In this document: piece after piece, positions 1,832 to 33,926 of the stretch | Position numbering within the stretch: the stretch's first letter is position 1 | How the letters are laid out: each line of letters opens with the position of its first letter | Origin: Nitrospira lenta | GTDB lineage: Bacteria > Nitrospirota > Nitrospiria > Nitrospirales > Nitrospiraceae | Direction of reading: 5' to 3' | Length of the DNA stretch: 64,000 bases | Assembly (NCBI RefSeq): GCF_900403705.1 | Contig: NZ_OUNR01000001.1 | Coordinates: 310,001 to 374,000 of the forward strand | Notes under the pieces: model-generated | Seen by the model: the letters and a program-made list of their open reading frames with translations, nothing else | Database searches by the model: none | What the model was told of the DNA's origin: nothing | Program-made: the position numbers and the translations under genes

Positions 1832-2623
1832 GTGGACTACCGTACACACAAGCTCCGTCAACGCACCGATCAGGCAGCCCGACCAACGGGGCCTGACGCC
1901 TGGTGCACCGCCGGCGGCTTCACGCTGATCGAGCTCATGATTGCGGTGGCAATCACCGGCATTCTGGCTTCCCTCGCCGTACCGACCTACACGGACTTTC
2001 TCTATAAAGCCAGAATTGCAAGGACCATCGCCGAACTTCACGGCCTAGCTAAAGAGGTGCAGGGGTTTGCTCTTTCGACGGAGCAGTACCCCAACACCTT
2101 GGCTCAAATTGGCCGGAGCACATTGCTTGATCCATGGGGACATCCCTATCAGTACTACCGAATCAATTGCGGCTCCGTCACCATTAGCCACTTCCACCAG
2201 CCCGATCTTCCAGACCATGGACCTGACAGACAAATTATTCCGGCCACCACCCCTTCCTCTCCCCATGAAGGACTCGTGCTCCTCACGGTCGGAACGACCC
2301 ACACCCAGGCGTTAGTCCAGCTCGTTGCGAAGGGCGGAAGCGGAAGCAGTGCGAGCGGAGGTGGCAGCAGCGGGAGTGGCGCAAGCGGAGCTGGAAGCGG
2401 TGGGCCTGGAGGCGGTGGGGCCGGAGGTGGCGGCGGCCCACCCTGCGGCGGAGTCGGAGGAGCGCGCAAGGATCGCTTTCTGGTTCCGATCAACTCCGAT
2501 TTCGATATTTACAGCATGGGACGGGATGGACAAACCGTCGCCCCTCTCACCGCGCTGAAGAGTCACGATGACATTATTCGCGCCAGCGATGGCGGATTCT
2601 ACGGCCTCGCGACCTACTTCTAA
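1832..2623 (+). CDS. GspG-like type II pseudopilin with a Gly/Ser-rich insert
   Basis: A 263-residue prepilin-like protein. A 29-residue leader ends GG and is followed by FTLIELMIAVAITGIL. That is the class III prepilin peptidase site with Glu at mature position 5, the start of a long hydrophobic N-terminal helix. The fold resembles the major pseudopilin of type II secretion: a DPWGHPYQYYR motif at about 100-110 and a C-terminal FDIYSMGRDG stretch at about 224-233. Between them sits a segment made almost only of Gly, Ser and Ala (about 168-210), with a single Cys at 205, which is unusual for GspG. The start is GTG at 1832; no ATG lies upstream of the cleavage site. No GspE/F or secretin genes lie nearby, so assembly would depend on machinery encoded elsewhere. 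Confidence 0.85.
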   Translation: MDYRTHKLRQRTDQAARPTGPDAWCTAGGFTLIELMIAVAITGILASLAVPTYTDFLYKARIARTIAELHGLAKEVQGFALSTEQYPNTLAQIGRSTLLDPWGHPYQYYRINCGSVTISHFHQPDLPDHGPDRQIIPATTPSSPHEGLVLLTVGTTHTQALVQLVAKGGSGSSASGGGSSGSGASGAGSGGPGGGGAGGGGGPPCGGVGGARKDRFLVPINSDFDIYSMGRDGQTVAPLTALKSHDDIIRASDGGFYGLATYF

Positions 2624-2635
2624 TTCGTCGGAATC

Positions 2636-5600
2636 ATGAAGACATTGTTCTCCACGTCCCTGCTCCAGAGTCGCATCGCCCGCCGCATGGTGGGGCTCTT
2701 CGTACTCTGCGCTCTGGTTCCGACATCGATCCTTGGCTGGGTGTCCTACCGGCAAGTCACCGACCAGTTGATGGCACAATCCTCGATCCGGCTTCAACAG
2801 GAAAGCAAGTCTCAGGGGATGGTGCTCTACAATCATCTCCTGACACTCAAGGCGGATCTCGACCGCCTCGCCGGCGGACTGCCGCAGGACGAACCCGTCA
2901 CAGAGGACTCGATACTCACCGCCTCGGTACAGGAGCTGGGGCCTCGGTTCCGCGAACTCCGCCTGCTGAGACCTGATAGCCCGTCGCACCACCAGCTGAA
3001 CGAGAAGCAGGTGAGCCATCTCAAGGCAGGAAAAACGCTGCTCCTGTTTCAACCTGCCGCCAACAACCTTCGAGACATTGTTCTGGCTCGCGCCGTCAAT
3101 CCGGATCGATGGGAGGCAGGGCTCCTCTCGGCCTCGATCAATGAAACTCTGCTCTGGGACATGCAGTCGAGAGACATGCTGCCGGCAGAAACCGACCTGG
3201 TCGTTGAAGACCATGACCAACGAATCCTCTACTCAACCTTTCAGGAACGGATCGAGCTTCCGGCTCTCCAACGACAGGACCTGACCACCCCCATGACGGA
3301 AGCGTTCGTCTGGCACTCAGGTGAACGCGACTACGTCGCAGGCGCCTGGACGGTGCCCCTGCGATACATCTTTCTTGCAGACCCCTGGATCATTGCACTG
3401 AGCCAAACGAGAGCGTCTGCCCTGGCCCCGGTCGATCAGTTCCGGCACACCTTCCTCATGGTCATCGCCTCCGCGTTGAGTGTCGTGGTGCTGCTCAGCC
3501 TCTCGCACATTCGCCGAAGCCTGCAGCCGGTGACGCTCCTGCAAGAAGGCACGACGCGCCTCGCCGGCGGGGACTTTACCACGCATGTCACCGTCAACAG
3601 CGGAGACGAATTCGAAGACCTGGCCGCGTCCTTCAATCGCATGACTGGCCAATTGAGCCGACAGTTTCATGTGCTGGAAACCCTCTCAGCCATCAGCCAC
3701 GCCATCCTCTCCAGTCATGAGCCCACCGCGATGACGCGGCTCGTGCAGTCCCGAATCTCCGAAACCGTTGCCTGTGACGCCATCGGGATGGCCTTGATGG
3801 AATCCGGCCAGCCCGGACCAACGATGATGTCCGTGCGGCATCTGCACTCCCGATCCAAGAGTGAATTCACCGAGTCGCTCTGTCAGTTTTCACAGACAGA
3901 GCTCGACCAGCTCCAGCGACACCCGCACCATGTATTGCTGTCGTCGTCCGCCCCACTACCCGGGTACGTGACAGCGATGGTCCCGCTTCAGCTCGCCAGC
4001 TTTGCGGCCTTTCCCATCATCGTGAACCATCTCGTGAGTGGCGCACTGGTGCTGGCCTATCGCTTGGGGAAATCCCCGTCCCCCGATGATATCGCCGCTG
4101 CCCGCAGGCTGGCCGACCAAGTGGCGGTGGCCCTCGCCAATAACCGCGCGATCGAAGCGCGCGTGCGCGCACAGATGGAGCTCGTCGGAGCCGTCGAGGC
4201 GCAACACGAAGCCGAGGAGCGGGCCACCGTGTTACAAGCCGAGAACCTGTCACTGGAGACGAAAGAAGAACGGCTGCGGCATCAGCAGAGTGCCACGCTG
4301 AATCTCGTCAAAGACCGGACGGTCTTTGACGGTTCTCTGGCCGACGCGGCCCGACTGGTCACGACGACGGCAGCCCAGGCCCTCGGAGTAGAACGGACCA
4401 GGGTGTGGATCTTTGAAGAAGGCCACCGCCGACTCTACTGCCTTGACAGTTATCAACGGTCCACGGACCGTCATGGGCCGGAACACACACTGTCCCTTTC
4501 GCGATATCCTGACTATTTCGAGAAACTCCAGCGCGGGCAGGTCCTCACGGCTCCGCCTGCGAGCCAGGATGCATCTTTTCGCGAGCTGTCGGCCGGGGTG
4601 CGCGCGCCGCGTGGCGTCAGCTCACGGATGGACGCCCCGTTTCATACCAGGACCGGCTTAGCCGGAGTGGTGACGGTCGAACATGTGGGACCGCCAAGAG
4701 AATGGGCCGTTGACGAACAGCAGTTTGCGCAAGCGCTGGGAAACTTCATGACCCTGGTGCTGGAAGCCGCTCGCCGCCGCGAGGCCGAAGAAGCTCTGGC
4801 CATCGCCAAACTCGCAGCCGAAGATGCAACCAAAGCCAAAGCGGAATTCCTCGCCAACATGAGCCATGAGATCCGGACACCGATGAACGGCGTGATCGGC
4901 ATGACGGAAATACTGGCCCGAACATCCCTCTCCGCTACACAGCGCCACTATGTAGAGACCATTCACAACTCCGGCGACACCTTGCTGGCACTCATCAACG
5001 ATATTCTCGATTTTTCGAAGATCGAAGCCGGAAAACTGGAAATCCAGCCGGCTCCCCTTGATCTCCGCGACCTGATTGAACGCACGACGGAACAGTTGGC
5101 CGAGCGCGCGCAGCGAAAAGGGCTCCAGCTGCTGGCGGAGTATGATCCATCGGCCCCTACCGCCGTCATCGGCGACCCCATTCGCATTCGCCAGATCCTG
5201 ACGAATCTCCTTGGGAATGCCATCAAGTTCACCCAGCAGGGCGATGTGCGTGTACACCTCACCGTAGACGCGCCGGCGCCACATGAAGCCGGGCCGGCGA
5301 TCGTTCGCATCGCCGTCACCGACACAGGGACCGGCATCAGCTCCGAAGGCCAGGCGAGGCTCTTCCAATCATTTTCTCAAGTGGATGGGTCCTCGACCAG
5401 GGTCCATGGGGGCACTGGCCTGGGACTCAGCATTTGCAAACAGCTCAGCCAATTGATGGGCGGCGCCATTGATGTCCATAGCCAAATGGGACAAGGCAGC
5501 ACGTTTCGGGTCACGCTTCCCCTGCCGCTACAAACCGAGCCCAGCGCCGCACGCGTGTCTGATCCGGCGCTCGCAGGGGTCCGGATTTGCGCCGCCGTGA

Positions 5601-6832
5601 GTCACCCTGCTACCCGGCAGCTTCTGACGCAATACCTATCCAGCTGGGGCCTCGCACCACGAACAGCGGATACCGGCGCGGAGTTTCTGGAGCAGGTAAT
5701 GGATGGACTGGCAACGGAAGGCGGACAAGTCATTGCGCTCATCGATGAAACGTTCGCGGATATGACCGATCTTCAAGTGATGCAGGATCTTCGGTCTGAT
5801 TCGGCCCTCGCGGATGCCGGCCTGCTTAGGCTCGTGTCCTTTACCCGCCGGGCCGATGTCGAACAAGACCCGGTGTTCGGCGGGATTCCCTTTGTCACCA
5901 AACCGCTCCGATACGACGCGCTCCATGCAGCGCTCCTGGAGCTCCTCGGGAGGAACCCGCTGCCAGCCGCGTTATTGCCACCGGCACCGCCCTCAAAGCC
6001 CCACCTAGCCGGCACGGTCTTGTTGGGCGAGGACAATCCTATCAATCAAGAGATCGCGACGCTGATGCTCGAAAACCTGGGTTGCTCCGTTACCGTCGCG
6101 CAGAACGGCCGAGAGGTGGTCGATTGCGTGAAGACGACTCGCTACGACATCATCTTCATGGATTGTCAGATGCCTGACATGGATGGGTTCGAGGCCACAC
6201 GCCTTATACGGACTTGGGAAAGCGAACTGGACAGCGGCCCGTCGAGACAACCTATTCCTATCATTGCACTGACAGCCCATGCGACACCCGGAGATCGCGC
6301 CCACTGCCTGACATCCGGCATGAGCGACTACTTGTCCAAACCCTTCACCATGGAACAGCTGCAGCAGATGGTGACCGCGTGGCTGGCGCAGAGCACGACT
6401 GCTGAGATCCCTGCCCAAATCCAGTCCACGCAGACAGCAGATGTTCCGCCGGCAGATACCGAACAAGCCGCTCCCCCGACCGTCGACCAGGCAGCATGGA
6501 ACTCAATTACCGCGCTGCAACGCCCCGGCAAGCCGGACATGCTCGCCAAAATCCTCACAATCTATCTGACAGACTCGCAGCAACTCGTCGACCAGGTTCG
6601 TCAGGGGGTCGCCGACGGAGAAGCCCAACGTGTCAACGAAGCCGCGCACAGCTTGAAATCACGCAGTGCCGTGCTCGGAGCAGTCTTGCTGTCAGACCTG
6701 TGCCAGCAGATCGAAGCAATCAGTCGTCAAGGATCGGTCAAGGGTACCGAGCCGTTGCTCGATCCACTCGAAACCGCCTTTACCCACGCCTGTCAGGTGT
6801 TTCAAGCCGAACTCGAAAAGAGAGCGGCATAG
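2636..6832 (+). CDS. Hybrid sensor histidine kinase, HAMP-GAF-GAF-HisKA-HATPase-REC-REC-HPt
   Basis: A 1398-residue membrane phosphorelay kinase. TM1 is at about 18-37, a large periplasmic region follows to about 270, TM2 is at about 272-290, then HAMP (about 291-345), two GAF-like domains (about 343-500 and 558-712) separated by a coiled coil, and HisKA with NMSHEIRTPMNG and phospho-His744. HATPase follows (about 850-965; N-box LLGNAIKFT, G-boxes DTGTGIS and GGTGLGLS). The first receiver (about 979-1105) lacks the N-terminal acidic pair but keeps LIDE. The second receiver (about 1127-1255) is complete, with Asp1176 in FMDCQMPDMDG and SKP. A C-terminal HPt domain carries AAHSLKSRS with His1338. 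This is the BarA/ArcB-type His-Asp-His layout. It lies 12 bases after the pseudopilin gene, suggesting that it senses or controls that structure. No response regulator with an output domain is adjacent. Confidence 0.93.
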   Translation: MKTLFSTSLLQSRIARRMVGLFVLCALVPTSILGWVSYRQVTDQLMAQSSIRLQQESKSQGMVLYNHLLTLKADLDRLAGGLPQDEPVTEDSILTASVQELGPRFRELRLLRPDSPSHHQLNEKQVSHLKAGKTLLLFQPAANNLRDIVLARAVNPDRWEAGLLSASINETLLWDMQSRDMLPAETDLVVEDHDQRILYSTFQERIELPALQRQDLTTPMTEAFVWHSGERDYVAGAWTVPLRYIFLADPWIIALSQTRASALAPVDQFRHTFLMVIASALSVVVLLSLSHIRRSLQPVTLLQEGTTRLAGGDFTTHVTVNSGDEFEDLAASFNRMTGQLSRQFHVLETLSAISHAILSSHEPTAMTRLVQSRISETVACDAIGMALMESGQPGPTMMSVRHLHSRSKSEFTESLCQFSQTELDQLQRHPHHVLLSSSAPLPGYVTAMVPLQLASFAAFPIIVNHLVSGALVLAYRLGKSPSPDDIAAARRLADQVAVALANNRAIEARVRAQMELVGAVEAQHEAEERATVLQAENLSLETKEERLRHQQSATLNLVKDRTVFDGSLADAARLVTTTAAQALGVERTRVWIFEEGHRRLYCLDSYQRSTDRHGPEHTLSLSRYPDYFEKLQRGQVLTAPPASQDASFRELSAGVRAPRGVSSRMDAPFHTRTGLAGVVTVEHVGPPREWAVDEQQFAQALGNFMTLVLEAARRREAEEALAIAKLAAEDATKAKAEFLANMSHEIRTPMNGVIGMTEILARTSLSATQRHYVETIHNSGDTLLALINDILDFSKIEAGKLEIQPAPLDLRDLIERTTEQLAERAQRKGLQLLAEYDPSAPTAVIGDPIRIRQILTNLLGNAIKFTQQGDVRVHLTVDAPAPHEAGPAIVRIAVTDTGTGISSEGQARLFQSFSQVDGSSTRVHGGTGLGLSICKQLSQLMGGAIDVHSQMGQGSTFRVTLPLPLQTEPSAARVSDPALAGVRICAAVSHPATRQLLTQYLSSWGLAPRTADTGAEFLEQVMDGLATEGGQVIALIDETFADMTDLQVMQDLRSDSALADAGLLRLVSFTRRADVEQDPVFGGIPFVTKPLRYDALHAALLELLGRNPLPAALLPPAPPSKPHLAGTVLLGEDNPINQEIATLMLENLGCSVTVAQNGREVVDCVKTTRYDIIFMDCQMPDMDGFEATRLIRTWESELDSGPSRQPIPIIALTAHATPGDRAHCLTSGMSDYLSKPFTMEQLQQMVTAWLAQSTTAEIPAQIQSTQTADVPPADTEQAAPPTVDQAAWNSITALQRPGKPDMLAKILTIYLTDSQQLVDQVRQGVADGEAQRVNEAAHSLKSRSAVLGAVLLSDLCQQIEAISRQGSVKGTEPLLDPLETAFTHACQVFQAELEKRAA

Positions 6833-6986: not shown

Positions 6987-8111
6987 CTACGGCCTCCCAG
7001 GCGTCGCTATTCCAGAGGGAGTCGTACCTGCGCTGAATGGTGACCCGGCGACCACGGCAAGAACGCCAGTTGAACTGTTGATGGTAAATGCGGATACGTT
7101 GCTGGATCCCCCGTTTGCTACATACAGGAACGATCCATTGGGGGAAACCGTCACTCCAGCCGGGCCCGTACCCGCTGAGAAGGGCGACCCAGCGACGGCC
7201 GTTAATGCGCCGGTCGTGTTATTGATCGTAAAGGCTGAGACATTGTTGGATCCCTGGTTAGCCACATACACAAAAGACCCGTTCGGTGACACGACCACGC
7301 CGGTCGGACTCGTCCCTACAGAGAACGGCGATCCGGCCACTGCGGACAGGGCACCCGTCGATCCGTTAATCGAATAGACCGAAATGTCGTTGGATCCCAG
7401 ATTTGTCGCGAGCGCGAATAATCCGTTGGGACTTACGGCAACGGCACTTGAATTGGTTCCTGCCGTAAAGGGAGATCCCGCTACCGCCGAGAGGACTCCC
7501 GTAGTTGAATTGATCGTATAGGCTGAAACACCCCCTCCTCCATTCGCCACGTAAGCGAATGAACTGTTCGGAGAGACTGCTACTGCGGCCGGATTAGTTC
7601 CCGCTGCGAAGGGGGACCCGGCAACCCCGGACAATACCCCGGTTGAACTGTTAATCGAATAGGCCGATACATTGTTGGTCCCTTGGTTTGCGACAAATGC
7701 AAAGGCGTTATTCGGAGACACCGTAACAGCACTGGGAGTAGTTCCGGCGGCGAACGGAGATCCGGCGACAGCTGTGAGTGCCCCTGTTGTGCTATTCACT
7801 GTAAATCCTGAAAGGGTGTTGGCTCCCGAGTTCGCCACATACACAAACGAGCCATTTGAAGACACCGCAACAGCACTGGGACTTGTCCCGGCTGAAAATG
7901 GAGCCCCTGCCACCGCCGTTAATACACCTGTCGTGCTGTTGAACGTGTACGCCGAGACATCGTTGGTCCCTTGATTGGCTACATATGCGATAGCTGAAGC
8001 ACTCGACCCGCCCAGGGTGAAATTGCCTCCTGGGCCGCCGCCGTCGCTTGGACAGCCGGTGAGAAGAGCGAGTCCCGCCAGCGCAGTCACGATCGACAAT
8101 GGTTTCTTCAT
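6987..8111 (-). CDS. Seven-bladed YVTN-type beta-propeller lipoprotein
   Basis: A 374-residue secreted lipoprotein. The signal sequence MKKPLSIVTALAGLALLTGC has lipobox LTGC, and a Gly-rich linker follows. The body is one repeated unit of about 44-45 residues: GSPFxAGTxPxAVxVSPNGSFxYVANxGxNxVSAYxINSTTGxL. Six full units lie between a partial N-terminal unit (YVANQGTNDVSAYTF) and a partial C-terminal one (VAGSPFSAGTTPSG). This is the Velcro closure expected of a seven-bladed propeller of the lactonase/YVTN group. The repeats are close to identical, so the DNA carries tandem repeats of about 132-135 bp at roughly 7000-7960. No catalytic residues are evident; binding or surface scaffolding is more likely than enzyme activity. 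A strong Shine-Dalgarno AAGGAG precedes the ATG at 8111. It is divergent from the SDR gene. Confidence 0.88.
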   Translation of the reverse strand: MKKPLSIVTALAGLALLTGCPSDGGGPGGNFTLGGSSASAIAYVANQGTNDVSAYTFNSTTGVLTAVAGAPFSAGTSPSAVAVSSNGSFVYVANSGANTLSGFTVNSTTGALTAVAGSPFAAGTTPSAVTVSPNNAFAFVANQGTNNVSAYSINSSTGVLSGVAGSPFAAGTNPAAVAVSPNSSFAYVANGGGGVSAYTINSTTGVLSAVAGSPFTAGTNSSAVAVSPNGLFALATNLGSNDISVYSINGSTGALSAVAGSPFSVGTSPTGVVVSPNGSFVYVANQGSNNVSAFTINNTTGALTAVAGSPFSAGTGPAGVTVSPNGSFLYVANGGSSNVSAFTINSSTGVLAVVAGSPFSAGTTPSGIATPGRP

Positions 8112-26828: not shown

Positions 26829-27047
26829 TTAAAACAGTCCGCTGTTTTTGGAGAGGACCTGATCGAGATCCTTATCGACTTTTACCCGAATCTCATGCTC
26901 GATCTTCACATTCAGGTTGATGGTAATCGGCTTATCCGGCGCGGCCACCTCCACACGGGGCGTACAGCCGGCCATCCCCCACACAAGCCATAACCCCATC
27001 GCCAGTCCTACTCCGCACCGTCCCATGCTATCCCCCTGCCCTGTCAT
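26829..27047 (-). CDS. ynbE: YnbE-like lipoprotein
   Basis: 72 residues. A lipoprotein signal ends at WGMAGC, and the short mature part is PRVEVAAPDKPITINLNVKIEHEIRV followed by KVDKDLDQVLSKN. The beta-strand repeating I-N-L-N-V-K-I pattern is typical of YnbE, which forms an outer-membrane multimer that YdbH beta-augments to make a lipid-conducting groove. ATG 27047 overlaps the ydbH stop by four bases; ATG 27026 is an alternative that gives a more conventional signal length. The small gene sits between ydbH and ydbL, as in Enterobacteria. Confidence 0.85.
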   Translation of the reverse strand: MTGQGDSMGRCGVGLAMGLWLVWGMAGCTPRVEVAAPDKPITINLNVKIEHEIRVKVDKDLDQVLSKNSGLF

Positions 27048-29836
27048 CGTCGTTGCGCCTTGTTTTGAAGCGATTCCTCAATATCCTGTACCAGACGAAG
27101 ACTTTGCAAGAGCGCCAGAACATTTTCCTGAACATTCACATTGAAATGAATGGGCGGACTTTTTTTCATGTCAGGATTTCTCCCCTCCAGCTGCGCGGCC
27201 AACTGCAACACCCCGTCTTCCGCATACTGCACTCCGGCTTTCAAGACTGTGTACTGAAAATTGCTGAGTGCCTGCGCCACCAGCTTCATGCCCGAATCGG
27301 CGTCGGCTAAAAGGGCGGCGGACTCCGATGAAGGTTGGTAACGAATCACCCCGCCGGGCGCTTCGGCTTCCACCGTCCCATCCTTGACACTCACCCCGTT
27401 CGCCGTCACCGCGAGCGGAATCGTCCCGTTCAACAGGCCCGTCCCCTGCAACCCCTTTTGCTGTTCAAGGCTCAAGAGCTTCGCCAGATCCAACCGCCGC
27501 AGCGACAATACCAGCCGGTGAGGCGGCGCAGCCGGGTCAAGATGAAGGCCGGAACTCGTCACGGATCCTCCAAAGAGACTAGCCTGAAAATCCTTGAGAT
27601 CCAGTACCGGCCAGAGATCTGACAACGACCACTGCAGGTCGGCTGTCACGGACACATTACTCAGCATCACCCCTGTCTGGATGACCGCCACATTCACCAC
27701 CGCCGGCTGACTCGATCGCACCTGTTCAAAACCCTGGAGATCAAAATCCAACGTCGTGTTGATTCCCTGAATCGCCATCCCCGGAACAGCTGCGGACACC
27801 TGTTCCGCCTGAATCGTGATTCTGCCAGGCTGAGGCGCAACCGTTGTCGAGTCCTTCAGTCGACCGGATGGCCACACAAGATCCGTACTGGCCGTTATTC
27901 GACCGGCCGTGAGATCGAACGACGCGGGCAACCCAGGCAGCCACTTTTGCAAACGATTCGCCTCGGCATCGAACTGGAGTGGCCCGAGCACCACTCGCGC
28001 CGATCCTTCCCCCCCTCCAAACGAGTGCGCAACCTTTGCCGTGACGACGCCCTCGCGCCCAGGGAGGTCTCCCCGCGCGTCGGCCTTGAACCCGGCTTGG
28101 TTCGCAGCAAACTTGACCTGCCACGCAGACGGCGGGATCGTCACCACCGGCAGCTGTCCGACTCGCACTCCGGCGAGATCGATACCCCCGTGGGCCGTCC
28201 AGGAACTCCCGACGGATTCGGCGCTTTGAAGCGTCACAGTGCCTTCTGCCAGCGTGACGTCGTATCCGGCCGAACGAATCCCCTGCGCGCCGATCCTGAG
28301 CGTGCCCGGACCGGCCGCGCATTGGCCAGATTCCAGCGTACACCGGACCGGAATCGGCGCGGCCACCTCGACGATCGCGGACGACATCGTCACACGCCCT
28401 TGTTCAAACTGCTTCACCGTCATCATCGAGGGAACATGCACGGTACCGTTCACCACGTGCTGCTTCAGGACCACGCGGCCCCAAAGTTCCCCCCGGACTT
28501 CTCGCACAGAAACCCCGGCGGCCAAACTGGGCGGCACCAGCCCGCGCAGATGGAACTCCCCTTCGCCCGACACGAGGTCTTGGCCGACCAGATCTGCCCG
28601 AGCGACATCCACCTCGACCACCAACGGTCCCGTCGCTGCCCCATACCCCACATGGACCGGACCATCCACGGTCAGGCGAATCGGCGATTCTGACCAATAG
28701 AGTGTCCCCTGAAGCGGCTGACGCTGTTCGACGCGAATCGGCTGATCGCCGCTCGGCAACAACGACTTGACCACACCCGGCACAAAGCGTGGCTGCATAT
28801 TCACCGTCGCCGTTCCCAACACCCCGGGATCGATCGTCCAGCCCAGCCGCGCCGGGGACCCCGAGAAACTCCCGGATGACGCTATGGCAATCTGCTTGGC
28901 CACACCTTTCAACGCCGGCAACGTTACGGTGGCCTGAAACGATCCTTGAAGCAGTGATTCCGGACTTTCGCGAAGCGCACTCAGAGCCGCGCTGGACGAC
29001 GCTGTGGCCGTCCATACGACGGCGACACGCCCCGATACAGTGCTCAGCTCCGGTCCGATCGGAACCGCCAACGCAATGAACGGAGCCAGCTCGCGAACAT
29101 TGACCTCCAATTTTCCCTCAACCTGCACCTGTCCGTCACGCGCCTGCGCCGTCGACTGCCAGGTGAGAATCGGGGCGGCCTGCGGCCGTTGCGACACCAG
29201 CGTCGCCGCCCAGGTCGTCGCGGAATGACCGGTCAGAGAAAGGGTATACGACGCCGTCTCACGCCCTTGAAATGACAGCCGCCCGCCGAGTTCTCCGTCT
29301 CGTTGTTCGACCACACCCTGAATCGCCACTTTGCGAAGCGGGCCGGTCGCCTGCTCACGAAATACCGTCACCTGGTTCAGGTGGACTTCTTCAAATGGCA
29401 ACACCGGAATCCGTCGCAGCAAATCACCAGCCGTGAGCACATTCCACGGAGATCCGCTCCCCTCGTCCGACATAGTCTCGACGGCGGATTCGCCAGCGAA
29501 AGACCGGTCATGATTGTTCAACATCTGAATGGCCAGATACGGCAGCACTACCCGCGAAACCCGGCCGTACAGGAGATCGGGCAGCCGGTACTCCACCTGA
29601 ACGTTCGTCACGGATACCATCAATACTTCGTCCCCCAGATCCAACTGAAACGACGCGACAGGAATCGAGAGTTCCCGCCATCCGGGATAGCCGAACTGCA
29701 CGATGACATTCCGATACCCTTGGCGACTCAGCCACTGCGTCACTCCGTACGACACCATCAATGGAACCAGGAGATAGACGCTCATGAGGCCCGTGAGAGC
29801 CAGTAACACAATGCGTTGATATCGATAGCGCAGCAT
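27044..29836 (-). CDS. ydbH: YdbH-like AsmA-family intermembrane lipid-transport protein
   Basis: 930 residues. One N-terminal TM (about 8-30, VLLALTGLMSVYLLVPLMVSYG) is followed by an almost uninterrupted beta-rich periplasmic region, the bridge-like groove characteristic of AsmA/TamB/YdbH proteins. The C-terminal part contains the YdbH family sequence LDLAKLLSLEQQKGLQGTG, GTIPLAVTANGVSVKDGTVEA and APGGVIRYQP, and ends IHFNVNVQENVLALLQSLRLV. That last segment is expected to pair with YnbE. YdbH-type proteins move phospholipids between inner and outer membrane. The gene starts the three-gene operon and is divergent from a dipeptide-epimerase-like gene, with about 180 bp between starts. Confidence 0.88.
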   Translation of the reverse strand: MLRYRYQRIVLLALTGLMSVYLLVPLMVSYGVTQWLSRQGYRNVIVQFGYPGWRELSIPVASFQLDLGDEVLMVSVTNVQVEYRLPDLLYGRVSRVVLPYLAIQMLNNHDRSFAGESAVETMSDEGSGSPWNVLTAGDLLRRIPVLPFEEVHLNQVTVFREQATGPLRKVAIQGVVEQRDGELGGRLSFQGRETASYTLSLTGHSATTWAATLVSQRPQAAPILTWQSTAQARDGQVQVEGKLEVNVRELAPFIALAVPIGPELSTVSGRVAVVWTATASSSAALSALRESPESLLQGSFQATVTLPALKGVAKQIAIASSGSFSGSPARLGWTIDPGVLGTATVNMQPRFVPGVVKSLLPSGDQPIRVEQRQPLQGTLYWSESPIRLTVDGPVHVGYGAATGPLVVEVDVARADLVGQDLVSGEGEFHLRGLVPPSLAAGVSVREVRGELWGRVVLKQHVVNGTVHVPSMMTVKQFEQGRVTMSSAIVEVAAPIPVRCTLESGQCAAGPGTLRIGAQGIRSAGYDVTLAEGTVTLQSAESVGSSWTAHGGIDLAGVRVGQLPVVTIPPSAWQVKFAANQAGFKADARGDLPGREGVVTAKVAHSFGGGEGSARVVLGPLQFDAEANRLQKWLPGLPASFDLTAGRITASTDLVWPSGRLKDSTTVAPQPGRITIQAEQVSAAVPGMAIQGINTTLDFDLQGFEQVRSSQPAVVNVAVIQTGVMLSNVSVTADLQWSLSDLWPVLDLKDFQASLFGGSVTSSGLHLDPAAPPHRLVLSLRRLDLAKLLSLEQQKGLQGTGLLNGTIPLAVTANGVSVKDGTVEAEAPGGVIRYQPSSESAALLADADSGMKLVAQALSNFQYTVLKAGVQYAEDGVLQLAAQLEGRNPDMKKSPPIHFNVNVQENVLALLQSLRLVQDIEESLQNKAQRR

Positions 29837-30019: not shown

Positions 30020-31138
30020 ATGCCCCAGTCGTCCCGCGGCCAGATCGTCACGATCGAATTCTGGCCTATCGATATCCCGATTACCGACCCATTTGTCGTC
30101 GCAACCGGTGCCCGCGTCGTCGCTGAAAATATCTTTGTCCGCCTCACCCTGCACGACGGGACACAGGGCTATGGAGAATCCGCCCCCTTCCCGGAGGTCG
30201 GCGGCGAAACTCGCGACTCCTGTCTGGCCACTCTCCGCCAGCTCGCCCCACTATTGATCGGCGCATCGCCCGGGCACTATGCCCGGCTCGCCGCTGAGAT
30301 GGCACAGACCGCGCCGGCTCATCCGGCCGCCCGATGCGGGCTTGAGACGGCGATGATCGATGCGTACTGTCAATCGACGCAGGTTTCCATGTGGCAACTC
30401 TGGGGCGGGCACGATGTCCGCCCGCGAGAGACCGACATCACCATTCCCATCTCCACCCTTAAAAAGTCTGTGGCCTTAGCCCGCGGCTGGTATGCCCAAG
30501 GCTTTCGCCTCTTCAAAATGAAAGTGGGCAACGATGTGGACCAGGATATCCGGCGACTGGAAGCCGTGCATCGCGCGCTGCCCGGCATTGCGTTTATCGG
30601 CGATGGAAATCAGGGGTTCTCTCGCGAGGAATGCCTGGCATTTGCCAGAGGCGTGCAACGATTCGGCGGAACGATGGTCCTCCTCGAACAGCCGGTCGTG
30701 CGGGACGATCTCGACAGTATGACGGCCATTCGTCGGGACACCGGCATCCCCGTGGCCGCCGATGAGTCGGTTCGCTCACTGGCGGACGCCCGCGACGTGA
30801 TCGCGCGGAATGCGGCGGACTACATCAATATCAAAATCATGAAGACCGGCGTGGTCGAAGCGGTCGCCATTGCAGAAACGACGCTCGCCGCCGGATTGAA
30901 ACTGATGGTGGGAGGAATGGTTGAAACCCGCCTCGCGATGGGCTGCTCGTTCAGCCTCGTCCTGGGGATGAAAGGGTTTGATATCCTGGACCTCGATACG
31001 CCGTTACTCTTAGCCACTGACCCTGTCCAAGGGGGCTATGGCTATCGGGGTGCTCACCTTGAGCCCTGGGTAGGTCCAGGACTCGCCCTTACGACTCAAC
31101 CAAACCGCGCAAACCACGAACTCGAAACCGTCCAGTAA
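30020..31138 (+). CDS. Enolase-superfamily enzyme, L-Ala-D/L-Glu (dipeptide) epimerase-like
   Basis: About 372 residues of the mandelate racemase/muconate lactonising subgroup. The capping domain starts IDIPITDPFVVATG and includes YGESAPFPEVGGETRD. The barrel carries the KxK pair in FRLFKMKVG, a metal ligand in FIGDGNQGFS, another in LLEQPV, VAADESV, and the opposing Lys in INIKIMKTG. A late GFDILDLDTP follows. Two Lys acid/bases across the barrel fit 1,1-proton transfer by dipeptide epimerases, which act in murein peptide recycling. Substrate specificity is inferred. ATG 29993 is an alternative; I favour 30020, which has AGGAAG ten bases upstream and is close to the first barrel strand. Confidence 0.82.
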   Translation: MPQSSRGQIVTIEFWPIDIPITDPFVVATGARVVAENIFVRLTLHDGTQGYGESAPFPEVGGETRDSCLATLRQLAPLLIGASPGHYARLAAEMAQTAPAHPAARCGLETAMIDAYCQSTQVSMWQLWGGHDVRPRETDITIPISTLKKSVALARGWYAQGFRLFKMKVGNDVDQDIRRLEAVHRALPGIAFIGDGNQGFSREECLAFARGVQRFGGTMVLLEQPVVRDDLDSMTAIRRDTGIPVAADESVRSLADARDVIARNAADYINIKIMKTGVVEAVAIAETTLAAGLKLMVGGMVETRLAMGCSFSLVLGMKGFDILDLDTPLLLATDPVQGGYGYRGAHLEPWVGPGLALTTQPNRANHELETVQ

Positions 31139-31144
31139 TCACCT

Positions 31145-31750
31145 CTATTGCGAACTCATCCCTACCGACTGATTCATATGGGTCACCGTTCGCTGCCCGC
31201 CACCGGAAGATGAAGAGCTCGAGGTGGATCCCGCCGACGAGTCCCCTCCCGCCCCTCCCCCGTCACCACTCTGCGACCCCGCAGAACTTCCCGTCCCCGG
31301 CAAGGATCCCGCACCGCTCCCGCCTGCCCCGGAGGACGCTGCCGGTGCCGACACAAGAGATTTGTCCACCGTCATGTGTCCATCCTGATACTGCGTCAAC
31401 ACAAGCGACGTCGATCCATCCACCTGCTCCTTCGCATAGGCATAGGCCTGATAGGCGATCCCATCGGTTCCTCCAAGAAATCGCATTTCGACTGAATAGA
31501 ATTTCAACGGAGGAATGGGATTGAAGCCGATCGCCCGCAGATCGCCGGCGAAGGATCCGCTCTGAGCCTGGTGAAGCTGCTGCAACCGATGGATCTCAGC
31601 GATCGCGACTTCCGCTTCCACCGATTGCGCTTTCTTGGTGAAATGTCGGTAGGACAGGAGCGCCACCGACGCAAGGATCCCCACGATGGTGACGACCAGC
31701 ATCAACTCGATGAGCGTGAAACCCTTCCGGGATAAGTGCGTCGCCTTCAT
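31145..31750 (-). CDS. Pseudopilin with a Gly/Ser-rich C-terminal region
   Basis: 201 residues. A short leader MKATHLSRKG is cut before FTLIELMLVVTIVGILASVALLSY, a standard prepilin cleavage site with Glu at +5. A helical stretch (HFTKKAQSVEAEVAIAEIHRL) and a small globular part follow. The last ~60 residues are mostly Gly, Ser and Ala (e.g. SGAGGSGAGSLPGTGS). No DPWG motif is visible, so it is not GspG; a minor pseudopilin or PilA/PilE-like type is possible. It parallels the pseudopilin at 1832 in combining a Gly/Ser-rich segment with a HAMP-protein neighbour. It starts three bases after the HAMP-only gene stop. Confidence 0.85.
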   Translation of the reverse strand: MKATHLSRKGFTLIELMLVVTIVGILASVALLSYRHFTKKAQSVEAEVAIAEIHRLQQLHQAQSGSFAGDLRAIGFNPIPPLKFYSVEMRFLGGTDGIAYQAYAYAKEQVDGSTSLVLTQYQDGHMTVDKSLVSAPAASSGAGGSGAGSLPGTGSSAGSQSGDGGGAGGDSSAGSTSSSSSSGGGQRTVTHMNQSVGMSSQ

Positions 31751-31753
31751 CGA

Positions 31754-32356
31754 TCAGCGGGCCCGCGTAAACGAGAACTCGCCAAGAACCTTTTCAAGGG
31801 ACGCAGCCGCCTGCTGCGCCGTTTGAAGGGACTCCGGATTCTCCAGTTGGTTCGATGCCAGCGCCGCGCGAATCACTGCCGTCTGGCGATGCATATCTCC
31901 AAATGCCTGGTCGATCTTGGCCATCGCCTGGTTGGCCGTCGATGCCAGCTCATCCAAACGATCGGACGGCCTGAACTGTACGCGCCAACTCAGATTCCCC
32001 TTCGCCCATTCCTGCATGCTCCGATCTAGCTGAACCAGTGGGCCGGCCACCCGCCGGGTCAGGATCAGACTGAAAATGACCGCCCCAAGAAACAGAACCG
32101 GTACGGCCACCGACACGGTTTCGCTAAGCAGCAGCATCTCGCTGGCGGCGGCCTGACGCTCTGCGAGTGAACCACCGCTATAGAGGGTCATCATCGGACC
32201 AAGATGCGGTCCATAAAAGGCCAGCGTAAAAAACAAGGCGGAATACAAGAAAAGAATGACGCCAATCCAGGCGGCATATCCCTTTTGCACGCGATGCAGA
32301 AAAAAACCTTTCCGACGCTCCGGCGGGGACGATACGATCAATGTCGTGGCAGGCAT
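31754..32356 (-). CDS. HAMP-only two-TM membrane protein (copy 3)
   Basis: 200 residues. TM1 lies at about 28-48, a loop of about 30 residues has LAERQAAASEMLL, TM2 lies at about 80-100, and a HAMP-like segment (about 100-152) contains RRVAGPLVQL, WAKGNLSWRV and RPSDRLDEL. A terminal helical stretch completes the protein. It shares with copies 1 and 2 the R(I/V)AGPL and GNLSxR motifs and the total lack of an output domain. With the pseudopilin three bases downstream it forms a reduced version of the cluster at 449-2623. It follows a strong hairpin at 32381 that separates it from the upstream gene. Confidence 0.75.
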   Translation of the reverse strand: MPATTLIVSSPPERRKGFFLHRVQKGYAAWIGVILFLYSALFFTLAFYGPHLGPMMTLYSGGSLAERQAAASEMLLLSETVSVAVPVLFLGAVIFSLILTRRVAGPLVQLDRSMQEWAKGNLSWRVQFRPSDRLDELASTANQAMAKIDQAFGDMHRQTAVIRAALASNQLENPESLQTAQQAAASLEKVLGEFSFTRAR

Positions 32357-32380
32357 AGCCCCTCCTTCAAACGGCGACAG

Positions 32381-32411
32381 CGATACGCGCCTGGAGTCCA
32401 GGCGCGTATCG
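32381..32411. terminator. Perfect 14-bp hairpin
   Basis: CGATACGCGCCTGG (32381-32394), a 3-base loop and CCAGGCGCGTATCG (32398-32411). It lies on the minus strand after the DUF3565 gene and before the HAMP-only gene. There is no T-run, so its role as terminator is only likely. Confidence 0.5.
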
Positions 32412-32495
32412 GAAGGCTATCACCAGTATGCAGCCTCACCAAGTAAATCAGCTGTTTGAGTGGAGGGAAGACAACCCTGATATCGGCCCGAAGGA

Positions 32496-32705
32496 TCACG
32501 CGCCCGGGGGAGAGAGGTCCGGCTCATGACAGCGTTTACAAAAGAGCAGCTGGCCGATCTGGCGCGTCCGTCCCTCCTGCGTGAGCACCCAGGGACGAGA
32601 GAAGAACGGCGGGTGATGGCGCACGTGCTGTCCATGGCCACAGGCCAGGTCAGCAACCCAGTCGCTATACTCGTCCAGGTGATACCCGACGATCGGTTGG
32701 TTCAT
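32496..32705 (-). CDS. DUF3565 family small protein
   Basis: 69 residues. The family is recognised by MNQPIVGYHLDEYSDWV, then LACGHGQHVRHHPPF, RPWVLTQEGR and a C-terminal LFCKRCHEPD. The Cys/His set (CGHxQHxRH and CxxC) suggests a small zinc-binding fold. DUF3565 proteins are widespread in Proteobacteria and have no assigned role. Longer overlapping frames on both strands are shadows. No clear operon partner: the next minus-strand gene upstream ends at 32765, about 60 bases away. Confidence 0.85.
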   Translation of the reverse strand: MNQPIVGYHLDEYSDWVADLACGHGQHVRHHPPFFSRPWVLTQEGRTRQIGQLLFCKRCHEPDLSPPGA

Positions 32706-32764
32706 GGTCCTACATCCTGCAGCACGTTCGTCACCAGCTATTCCAATTCGCCCGTGAGTGTCGG

Positions 32765-33217
32765 TTATCGCTTCTCAAACGGACGCTCCGGACGTACAGC
32801 GGCCGATACAAACCCCCAATGCTCTTCAGCATCTTCGTCAAAACTTCCGACGAAAATGACGTCTCTATCGAGGTGCCTGAACTCCGCGAGTGTCAGGCTG
32901 CACTGGCGAATATCGATCACACGGGCATCGAATTGTCCGACAACATAGATCTGGGCCTTGGCCGTGACATACACATTGCGGCGGCTCGTGTATCCGGTAT
33001 CGGGGAAGAGGTCTACCGTTTGCGCACAGCCACCCGCACGCTCAATCGACATGGCCAGGTTATGCCGTGACAGAAACGGATCCGTGGCCACCCGCACGAT
33101 GGTCAGCCGAAGCCCAGTCCCCGGAATCTCGGTCGAGGCCGGCTCAGGCACACCGCTGTTACATCCGCTCAACACACCAATCGCAGCGACGAGCAGACAC
33201 CGTCGCAGGAGCCTCAT
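32765..33217 (-). CDS. Lipoprotein of unknown function, coupled to a GlcG/HbpS-like gene
   Basis: 150 residues. MRLLRRCLLVAAIGVLSGC has the lipobox LSGC. The mature domain contains GLRLTIVRVATDPFLSRHNL, a central GGCAQTVDLFPD and a C-terminal RDVIFVGSFDEDAEEHWGF. I do not recognise the family. Two Cys residues in the mature domain (about 64 and 104) could form a disulfide. The ATG overlaps the preceding gene stop as TAATG, so it is translationally coupled to the HbpS-like gene. A longer frame to 33277 lacks a signal sequence. Confidence 0.78.
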   Translation of the reverse strand: MRLLRRCLLVAAIGVLSGCNSGVPEPASTEIPGTGLRLTIVRVATDPFLSRHNLAMSIERAGGCAQTVDLFPDTGYTSRRNVYVTAKAQIYVVGQFDARVIDIRQCSLTLAEFRHLDRDVIFVGSFDEDAEEHWGFVSAAVRPERPFEKR

Positions 33218-33735
33218 TACTTCGCCGCCGGAATCTTTGGAGCAGCGCCAATGGCATCCAAGCCCGCTTCGGCGCACGCATCGTCAAGGTGGGCACCGGG
33301 CGCACCGCCGACACCGATCGCACCAATTACTTCTCCGCTGATCTCAATCGGCAACCCTCCGCCCAGCATCAAAATCTGCTCATTCATATCCCGCAATCCT
33401 TGCAGCGTCGGGGTCCGGCTCATGAGTTCGGCTAATTCACTCGTCGCACGACGCAAACTCGCCGCAGTGTACGCCTTCTTTCGACTGCTATCGATGGTAT
33501 GCGGGCCAGCGCCATCCGCCCGTCCCATCGTCCGCAATAGACCCGCGCGATCAACGACCGACACGCTGACGCGATAGCCGTCTTTCTTACAGGCATCGAT
33601 CGCCGCTTGTGCCGCCCGTTGAGCGAGGCTCAAGGATAAGACCGATTCCTTCGGCAACTCCTGAGCGACTGCACTCGCGGCGCCGAACATCAAACTCCCA
33701 ACCAGAACAGCGCGCTGCAGCAACACTTTATCCAT
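33217..33735 (-). CDS. Exported GlcG/HbpS-like (heme-binding) protein
   Basis: 172 residues. Signal peptide VLVGSLMFGAASAVAQ, then a GlcG/HbpS domain: LSLAQRAAQAAIDACKKDGY, VSVVDRAGLLRTMGR, KKAYTAASLRR and a Gly-rich LMLGGGLPIEISGEVIGAIGVGG, then DDACAEAGLDAI. The last two match the family very well. HbpS binds heme and iron outside the cell in Streptomyces; in other bacteria the domain is of unknown role. The start is ATG 33735 with AAAGGAG seven bases upstream; the longer frame to 33780 adds 15 residues and no signal. Coupled by TAATG to the lipoprotein gene. Confidence 0.87.
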   Translation of the reverse strand: MDKVLLQRAVLVGSLMFGAASAVAQELPKESVLSLSLAQRAAQAAIDACKKDGYRVSVSVVDRAGLLRTMGRADGAGPHTIDSSRKKAYTAASLRRATSELAELMSRTPTLQGLRDMNEQILMLGGGLPIEISGEVIGAIGVGGAPGAHLDDACAEAGLDAIGAAPKIPAAK

Positions 33736-33926
33736 TAGGCACTCCTTTATGTGCAGGCAATGAACGCAAGCGAGAGTCAACCCGGAGAGTAGTAAGGCGA
33801 CCGAAGACTGTCAAGTCCGCATCACAAGACAGGAGGGCCTCGAACCTTCAACGGAGATCTCTCACGAAAGCGATTGGAAGAAGATACTGCCGAGGACGAA
33901 AAAAGAAGAGCGGAGAACGCGCACGC

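Follow-up and report, generated by a model that had tools for sequence, protein, structure and literature searches.

In the sensory rhodopsin II/HtrII system, a HAMP transducer with two transmembrane (TM) segments takes its switching input from a different membrane protein at its side. PilS and PilA form a sensor-pilin pair reportedly described by Kilmury and Burrows in 2016. According to the available portions of the papers on these and related proteins of Pseudomonas, a membrane sensor reads inner-membrane pilins by direct contact, with PilS monitoring PilA in the inner membrane and FimS reading minor pilins, an interaction that was seen in two-hybrid tests (PMC6058289, PMC5979040, PMC11841053). 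Another membrane partner of pilins is TfpY, which, in the part of the source at hand, is described as a likely interaction partner of the major pilin and of some minor ones and as built of three N-terminal TM helices followed by a periplasmic alpha/beta C-terminal domain (PMC11841053).

We analyzed a window of 64,000 nucleotides, the whole stretch of DNA considered here, from the genome of Nitrospira lenta (3,756,190 bases, or 3.76 Mb). Near its middle, a stand-alone membrane HAMP protein with no recognizable output domain is encoded directly upstream of a pilin, and we regard it as almost certain that the two proteins form a functional pair.

A stand-alone HAMP protein encoded next to a pilin

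The two genes lie on the minus strand, where B-HAMP (31754-32356; 200 aa, ATG start) is upstream and its stop is separated from the start of the B pilin (31145-31750; 201 aa, ATG start) by three bases (31751-31753), which is the arrangement of a two-TM HAMP-only protein and a pilin that the initial annotation of the window had described. By eye, B-HAMP has two hydrophobic segments (residues ~28-50 and ~81-100), and the unit that they form with the periplasmic loop of only ~30 residues between them (residues ~28-100; 32057-32275, minus strand) leads into a HAMP domain (residues ~101-153; 31898-32056, minus strand) assigned from the family alignment and NCBIfam models. The motifs RRVAGPL, KGNLSWR, and RPSDRLDEL follow the second hydrophobic segment; the initial annotation had listed RxAGPL, GNLSxR, and RxxDxL as common to B-HAMP and the two copies in cluster A, discussed below. 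Only ~45 residues remain after the HAMP domain, and searches of Pfam and NCBIfam found no output domain of the kinase, MCP, or cyclase kind.

The Pfam HAMP model (PF00672) does not match B-HAMP at E<=0.01, nor up to E 1, and at the former threshold it matches 6 of 28 members of the HAMP family, the best at 1.1e-9. HAMP-bearing NCBIfam models do match, with the MtrB kinase model covering residues 58-150 at E 4e-6, and the HAMP parts of B-HAMP and of A1, a homolog from cluster A, match in a profile-profile comparison at E 1.7e-14. When the family profile was compared with the PDB, a designed coiled coil ranked first, and the next best matches were HAMP-bearing chemoreceptors and the sensory rhodopsin transducer (2f95, E 1.7e-4). 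No dedicated Pfam or NCBIfam model for the stand-alone family was matched. The structural model of B-HAMP is of low confidence (pLDDT 67, pTM 0.38), with helices at residues 14-60 and 64-99 and an all-helical remainder; Foldseek with this model returned no match at E<=0.001, and the Z of 7.2-7.4 between residues 101-198 and solved HAMP fusions is a value that chance similarity between helical bundles can produce.

The B pilin begins with a prepilin motif in which a predicted leader (31721-31750, minus strand), cleaved after MKATHLSRKG, is followed by FTLIE, so that both a cleavable G/F junction and Glu5 are present, and its match to PF07963 (N_methyl; E 1.6e-7) scores 31 bits against a cut-off of 21.2. 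The model (pLDDT 63) comprises a long helix at H13-64, four strands within residues 85-132, and an unstructured tail. This tail (31148-31351, minus strand) is the Gly/Ser-rich C terminus already recognized in the initial annotation, with 59% Gly+Ser over the last 68 residues and pLDDT mostly <50, and no tandem repeats were found behind it at score 30. In the fold ranking, Pseudomonas aeruginosa PilE came first (Z 9.3, rmsd 2.7, 92 aligned residues), PAK pilin reached Z 8.0, and all of the best 19 rows were pilins or a pseudopilin. Because these type IV pilins rank above EpsH (Z 5.4) and EpsG (Z 5.0), the protein is not best called a pseudopilin of a type II system, the label it was first given; the ranking suggests a type IVa-like pilin instead. 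Foldseek alone gave nothing at E<=0.001 (best 0.53, PilX), and the GspH model matched the N terminus at E 4.1e-10 with 39.9 bits against a cut-off of 80.

At the position of the Gly/Ser tail, many other Nitrospiraceae have pilin tails that contain Cys. Across 35 B loci, the tail takes the form C..GG..DGLLD..FC.K in 14, CQECGRVVI in eight, and other forms in 13, two of which are cut by contig ends and five of which are of the Gly/Ser kind found in the clade of the window. The pilin of cluster A (1832-2623, plus strand) is of another type, GspG-like by its N_methyl and T2SSG matches and carrying a Gly-rich insert. If the B pilin is type IVa-like, then a single HAMP family works with pilins of two types. 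Resolution is poor in the deep branches of the pilin tree.

Farther upstream on the same strand are a small lipoprotein predicted by eye (32765-33277; no Pfam match) and an HbpS-like protein (33217-33780; PF03928, E 1.9e-34). A YdbH-like intermembrane lipid transport protein (PF11739, E 1e-76) is encoded at 27044-29836. We found no sigma-70-like promoter in positions 31000-33300, where 0.6 would be expected. A defense system was considered and set aside, PADLOC having given no match at E<=0.01.

Homology of the HAMP proteins and the enzyme of cluster A

The window starts with cluster A, on the plus strand, which opens with A0, a small envelope protein without a Pfam match (6-452; present in 24 of 24 A loci), followed by the stand-alone HAMP proteins A1 (449-1117) and A2 (1120-1827), the GspG-like pilin, and a hybrid histidine kinase to which Pfam assigns the domains HAMP-GAF-HisKA-HATPase-REC-Hpt (2636-6832). 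The B locus has neither A0, nor a second HAMP copy, nor a downstream signaling enzyme, and to call it a minimal version of the first cluster, as had been done, is fair as a description of architecture.

In a whole-genome search, B-HAMP matches A1 with 27% identity (E 1.6e-9) and A2 with 30% (E 3.2e-6), and the similarity on which the initial annotation had staked its proposal is thus significant. The motifs RxAGPL, GNLxxR, and RxxDxL are by themselves close to the general HAMP signature, and the part before the HAMP domain (TM1, loop, and TM2) is therefore the stronger test. Profile-profile comparison of these parts gave E 1.8e-9 for B-HAMP with A1, 2.7e-24 for A1 with A2, and a weak 5e-4 for B-HAMP with A2; among the corresponding parts of eight long HAMP proteins of the same genome, used as a control, none matched (best E 0.017). 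Judged by their sequences, the three proteins are homologs, also outside the HAMP domain, if weakly so for B-HAMP and A2. A profile of the three recovered only B-HAMP, A1, and A2 from the genome as short full-length members, and its other nine matches at E<=1 are all in long frames. No third locus was found in this profile search, and recurrence inside the genome therefore amounts to two loci and three genes; the further pairs that had been anticipated occur in relatives and in other Nitrospirota families rather than in this genome.

Of the 24 A loci, 19 have a relative of the window kinase after the A pilin, and the remaining five stop at a contig end. Pfam was run on the enzymes of four of these 19 loci (L117, L119, L131, and L132), and the rest were assigned by BLAST to the window kinase. 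The enzyme is a hybrid kinase in the window, in L131 (Nitrospira), and in L117, L132, and L214 (genus g18), and its output is an HD domain in L119 (genus g10) and L170 (another family), where the same sensor-HAMP-GAF half is retained with ~32-35% identity to the window kinase. A constant sensor part with a swapped output is what a signaling role would predict, and the HD type suggests cyclic-di-GMP as a possible end point. The HD motif of L170 is the canonical HHERMDGKGYP; an exact motif of the HHExxDGxGYP type was found in L170 only, and not in L119 or in the response regulator of L117, where a REC-HD protein is encoded after the kinase.

Of 11 A loci examined, eight (L112, L113, L116, L122, L124, L131, L133, and L134) have, after the kinase, what looks by eye like a response-regulator gene, and in this window the kinase is instead followed by a gene on the opposite strand. 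Adjacent to cluster A, also on the opposite strand, a predicted lipoprotein (6987-8111) consists of repeats of the form SPFxAGTxPxxVxVSPNGxFxYVANxG, which look beta-propeller-like by eye.

Conservation of the pairing

The 80 Nitrospiraceae loci compared contain 106 stand-alone HAMP proteins. A downstream pilin accompanies 104 of them, and the two exceptions are one broken copy and one contig end. The pilin gene is directly next in 75 of these 104 cases, comes after one more HAMP gene in 26, and is fused in three. That recurrence pointed to a functional module had been proposed from the window alone, and the distribution bears this out: a close B-HAMP (E 1.4e-35 or better) is present in 36 of 147 Nitrospiraceae genomes, all of which are among the 39 Nitrospiraceae genomes with a match to the B pilin (E<=1e-18). 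The loci analyzed were drawn from the matches listed, apart from at least those of G089, G092, G118, and G145, and the named relatives (14 loci) are mostly Nitrospira metagenome genomes.

The three B-pilin genomes without a close B-HAMP are G016, G040, and G049. In G016 (L246:4541-6131), the lipoprotein and pilin genes are conserved with no HAMP gene between them, and the pilin reads AFTLVG, with Gly in place of Glu5, in a frame that is open and scores 23.3 bits against the N_methyl cut-off of 21.2. The pilin of G040 is at a contig start and not in one clear frame, and that of G049 adjoins other genes; G010 has a second pilin at a contig end.

When five neighbors of B-HAMP were compared over 35 loci, the pilin alone was kept in all 35, followed by the lipoprotein (31), the HbpS-like protein (30), YdbH (23), and the epimerase (18), with some of these losses being contig ends. 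The HAMP and pilin genes are separated by -4, -1, or +3 bases in 28 of the 45 loci listed, so that stop and start overlap or lie three bases apart, and three B gaps computed as -164 to -208 arose because the longest ORF was taken.

The congruence of HAMP and pilin trees that the initial annotation proposed to examine is present but unspecific. Distances among the HAMP proteins correlate with those among the pilins (r 0.823 over 32 pairs, with 0 of 2000 permutations as high), both within A (0.957, 10) and within B (0.862, 14). In a separate comparison of B alone the value is 0.878 (36 taxa), and it remains at 0.755 when the distances of the lipoprotein and HbpS-like proteins are removed (30 taxa, 0 of 2000 permutations). 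The distances of B-HAMP correlate still more strongly with those of YdbH (r 0.976, 24 taxa) than with those of the pilin, and because of this we attribute the congruence mainly to common descent and reject it as proof of partnership.

In three genomes, the reading frame of A2 continues into the pilin with no intervening stop (L115 in G068, L123 in G091, and L120 in G042). In L115 and L123, the end of A2 meets the pilin directly at the junction SLDTFRTDRG/FTLIELM, and these two fusions, identical at this point, are probably one event; the L120 fusion, with a linker of ~60 residues, looks like a separate one. The free A2 C termini listed read F[KR]TxxG in 16 of 16 cases, and cleavage of a fusion at the prepilin site would therefore leave an almost normal A2 end. 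The topology would fit as well, with the HAMP domain and the prepilin leader both on the cytoplasmic side.

Relatives in other Nitrospirota

A profile search of 295 Nitrospirota genomes, with scoring limited in most of them to 10 candidates each, yielded further stand-alone HAMP proteins of ~200 residues among the matches listed. From these we picked loci by score and a short open frame, ignoring neighbors, and examined 52 of them (L163-L214, with L215 repeating L163) holding 66 such proteins; L214 is from Nitrospiraceae, and the others are from outside this family. Three main contexts emerged, assigned by pattern with Pfam checks on examples: a pilin, a multihaem cytochrome c, and a SurA-like protein and/or a protein of 177 residues. 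Relatives linked to pilins occur in other Nitrospirota families too, with different neighbors. A search of 72,556 plasmid records with A1 gave no match at E<=1e-5.

We placed 89 rows in a HAMP tree (14 of 35 B-HAMP, 8 of 25 A1, 7 of 19 A2, and 60 of the 66 further proteins, six truncated, merged, or broken ones being omitted), which was built by a quick method with SH-aLRT support and no bootstrap and is unrooted. A branch with 100% SH-aLRT support has on one side 38 pilin-linked rows, comprising all sampled B-HAMP, A1, and A2 and nine further proteins, together with L200, where the pilin is upstream. The 50 rows on the other side are 29 of the cytochrome type, 14 of the SurA type, six others, and one pilin-linked protein (L203). 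The two sides also differ at residues of the TM1 exit and the loop, in a comparison that omitted L203 and rows without clear context: on the pilin side, F47 is found in 30 of 30 rows and A71, L75, and L77 in 87-90%, and in the cytochrome and SurA groups other residues are commonest at these positions, except for Leu77, which 38% of the cytochrome group have. The B-HAMP of the window carries all four residues (F47, A71, L75, and L77). Position 82, where the window has Ser, is often Trp among the pilin-linked rows, and often Trp in the SurA group as well.

At L203:6297-8056, two tandem stand-alone HAMP proteins precede a typical major-type pilin and sit on long branches off the pilin clade, which suggests either a separate origin or strong divergence. 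A multihaem cytochrome c gene has a stand-alone HAMP gene on each side in several Nitrospirota, often with overlapping ends (L183:4035-6113, L195:2231-4169, L182, L178, L196, and others). Elsewhere, a stand-alone HAMP protein lies between the SurA-like protein and the 177-residue protein (L173:6045-7977, L171, L175, L179, L180, and L202), and Pfam gave no match for the latter in L173.

What the pair may do

By these comparisons, B-HAMP belongs to a pilin-associated HAMP family whose members descend together with the pilin and in some cases are fused to it. We give about an even chance to a signaling mechanism in which the HAMP protein is a dedicated membrane partner that reads the membrane state of its pilin and relays it onward. 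The two TM helices and short periplasmic loop of the partner would hold the hydrophobic first helix of the pilin, the change between a bound pilin and one pulled into a filament would switch the HAMP four-helix bundle, and the switched HAMP dimer would pass this state to another protein. In cluster A, the receiver could be the co-encoded HAMP-GAF kinase (or, in relatives, the HD-domain protein), and in cluster B it would act in trans. If this is how the pair works, then it would resemble the reading of PilA by PilS within the membrane, except that the sensor and the enzyme would be two proteins. We infer the contact in the membrane from genetics and sequence; the HAMP domain may switch, and information may flow, in the way proposed.

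Pilin sensing is favored by the pairing, the co-occurrence, the coupling of the genes, the fusions, and the partner-specific clade and residues. The A enzyme, in which the sensor-HAMP-GAF half is constant and the output is either a kinase or an HD domain, points the same way, as does the genome without a B-HAMP gene whose pilin lacks Glu5, although that pilin still passes the N_methyl cut-off in an open frame. The PilS-PilA and FimS-pilin contacts, as far as the available portions of the papers describe them, are precedents. On the other side, the B locus lacks a gene for a receiver, the congruence of the trees is unspecific, the B-HAMP model is of low confidence, and fusion to the pilin would be compatible with a role in assembly too. 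Stand-alone HAMP proteins are also found beside cytochromes and SurA-like proteins, and the presence of a HAMP protein by itself therefore implies no pilin sensing.

The main rival, possible but in our view somewhat unlikely, holds that the HAMP protein does no signaling and instead aids assembly as an adapter or chaperone for its pilin, in the manner of TfpY or FimB; it would hold the pilin in the inner membrane and hand it over to a minor-pilin tip or to the assembly platform. One-to-one pairing, translational coupling, and fusion all fit this role, as does a B locus without an enzyme, and T2SSE-family (PilB/PilT-type) ATPases and PilM are encoded elsewhere in the genome; TfpY-like inner-membrane proteins that are co-expressed with pilins promote assembly, according to the part of the source at hand (PMC11841053). 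However, a HAMP domain is a signal relay, the word HAMP is absent from that part of the TfpY paper, and TfpY as described there differs in having three TM helices and a periplasmic domain (PMC11841053). The signaling enzyme that comes after the A pilin wherever the contig extends beyond it is likewise not what an adapter would call for.

PilJ-PilA is the model for a third explanation, which we consider improbable, namely a device resembling a chemoreceptor that would sense filament tension or contact on the periplasmic side, with the HAMP protein forming mixed bundles with MCPs or kinases. The HAMP chemoreceptors and rhodopsin transducer that come after the designed coiled coil in the PDB comparison agree with such a device, but the periplasmic loop is short, and no MCP signaling domain follows the HAMP domain. 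Finally, an old neighborhood kept by common descent without any partnership would be in keeping with the frequent retention of the HbpS-like protein and the lipoprotein and with a YdbH correlation above that of the pilin, but it is highly unlikely given that only the pilin is kept in every locus, that the pair is found again at a second locus and, among other neighbors, in other families, that three fusions exist, and that the HAMP clade is split by partner.

If pilin sensing is correct, it might be one case of a wider class. We entertain, tentatively, a split transmembrane receptor with the pilin as input, the HAMP protein as a transducer without output, and an enzyme that is separate and exchangeable, be it a phosphorelay kinase or an HD-type cyclic-di-GMP phosphodiesterase, with the same plan applying to the cytochromes and SurA-like proteins. 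Were this so, Nitrospirota would use detachable HAMP transducers generally to read proteins of the envelope.

Comparison with known pilin sensors and accessory proteins

Stand-alone HAMP proteins, pilin sensors, and pilin accessory proteins are all already known, and what appears to be new here, judged by the literature searched, is a stand-alone HAMP family dedicated to pilins. We found no published description of a pilin paired with a stand-alone HAMP protein in the literature searched, which consisted mostly of titles and the beginnings of abstracts. If the sensing mechanism holds, then the reading of pilins within the membrane also exists as a separable module, with one protein per pilin and an exchangeable output, and it would offer a clean handle on how a cell tells pilin in the membrane from pilin in the filament, because the sensor has 200 residues, has no enzyme, and is naturally fused to its presumed ligand. 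A HAMP family for which the Pfam and NCBIfam searches matched no dedicated model would also gain a partner, and would do so in Nitrospira, an important nitrifier.

Af1503 of Archaeoglobus is a stand-alone HAMP protein too, and the portion of its description available mentions no pilin partner. HtrII differs from the family described here in that its input partner is a rhodopsin and the transducer bears its own signaling domain. Like TfpY, TfpZ, and FimB, B-HAMP would be an inner-membrane protein co-expressed with a pilin and not itself a pilin; unlike TfpY, from which it is set apart by description, it has two TM segments and a cytoplasmic HAMP domain. In PilS and FimS the sensor is the kinase itself, whereas here a HAMP membrane sensor without an enzyme would be made together with one pilin, the enzyme being a separate protein in cluster A and absent from the locus in B.
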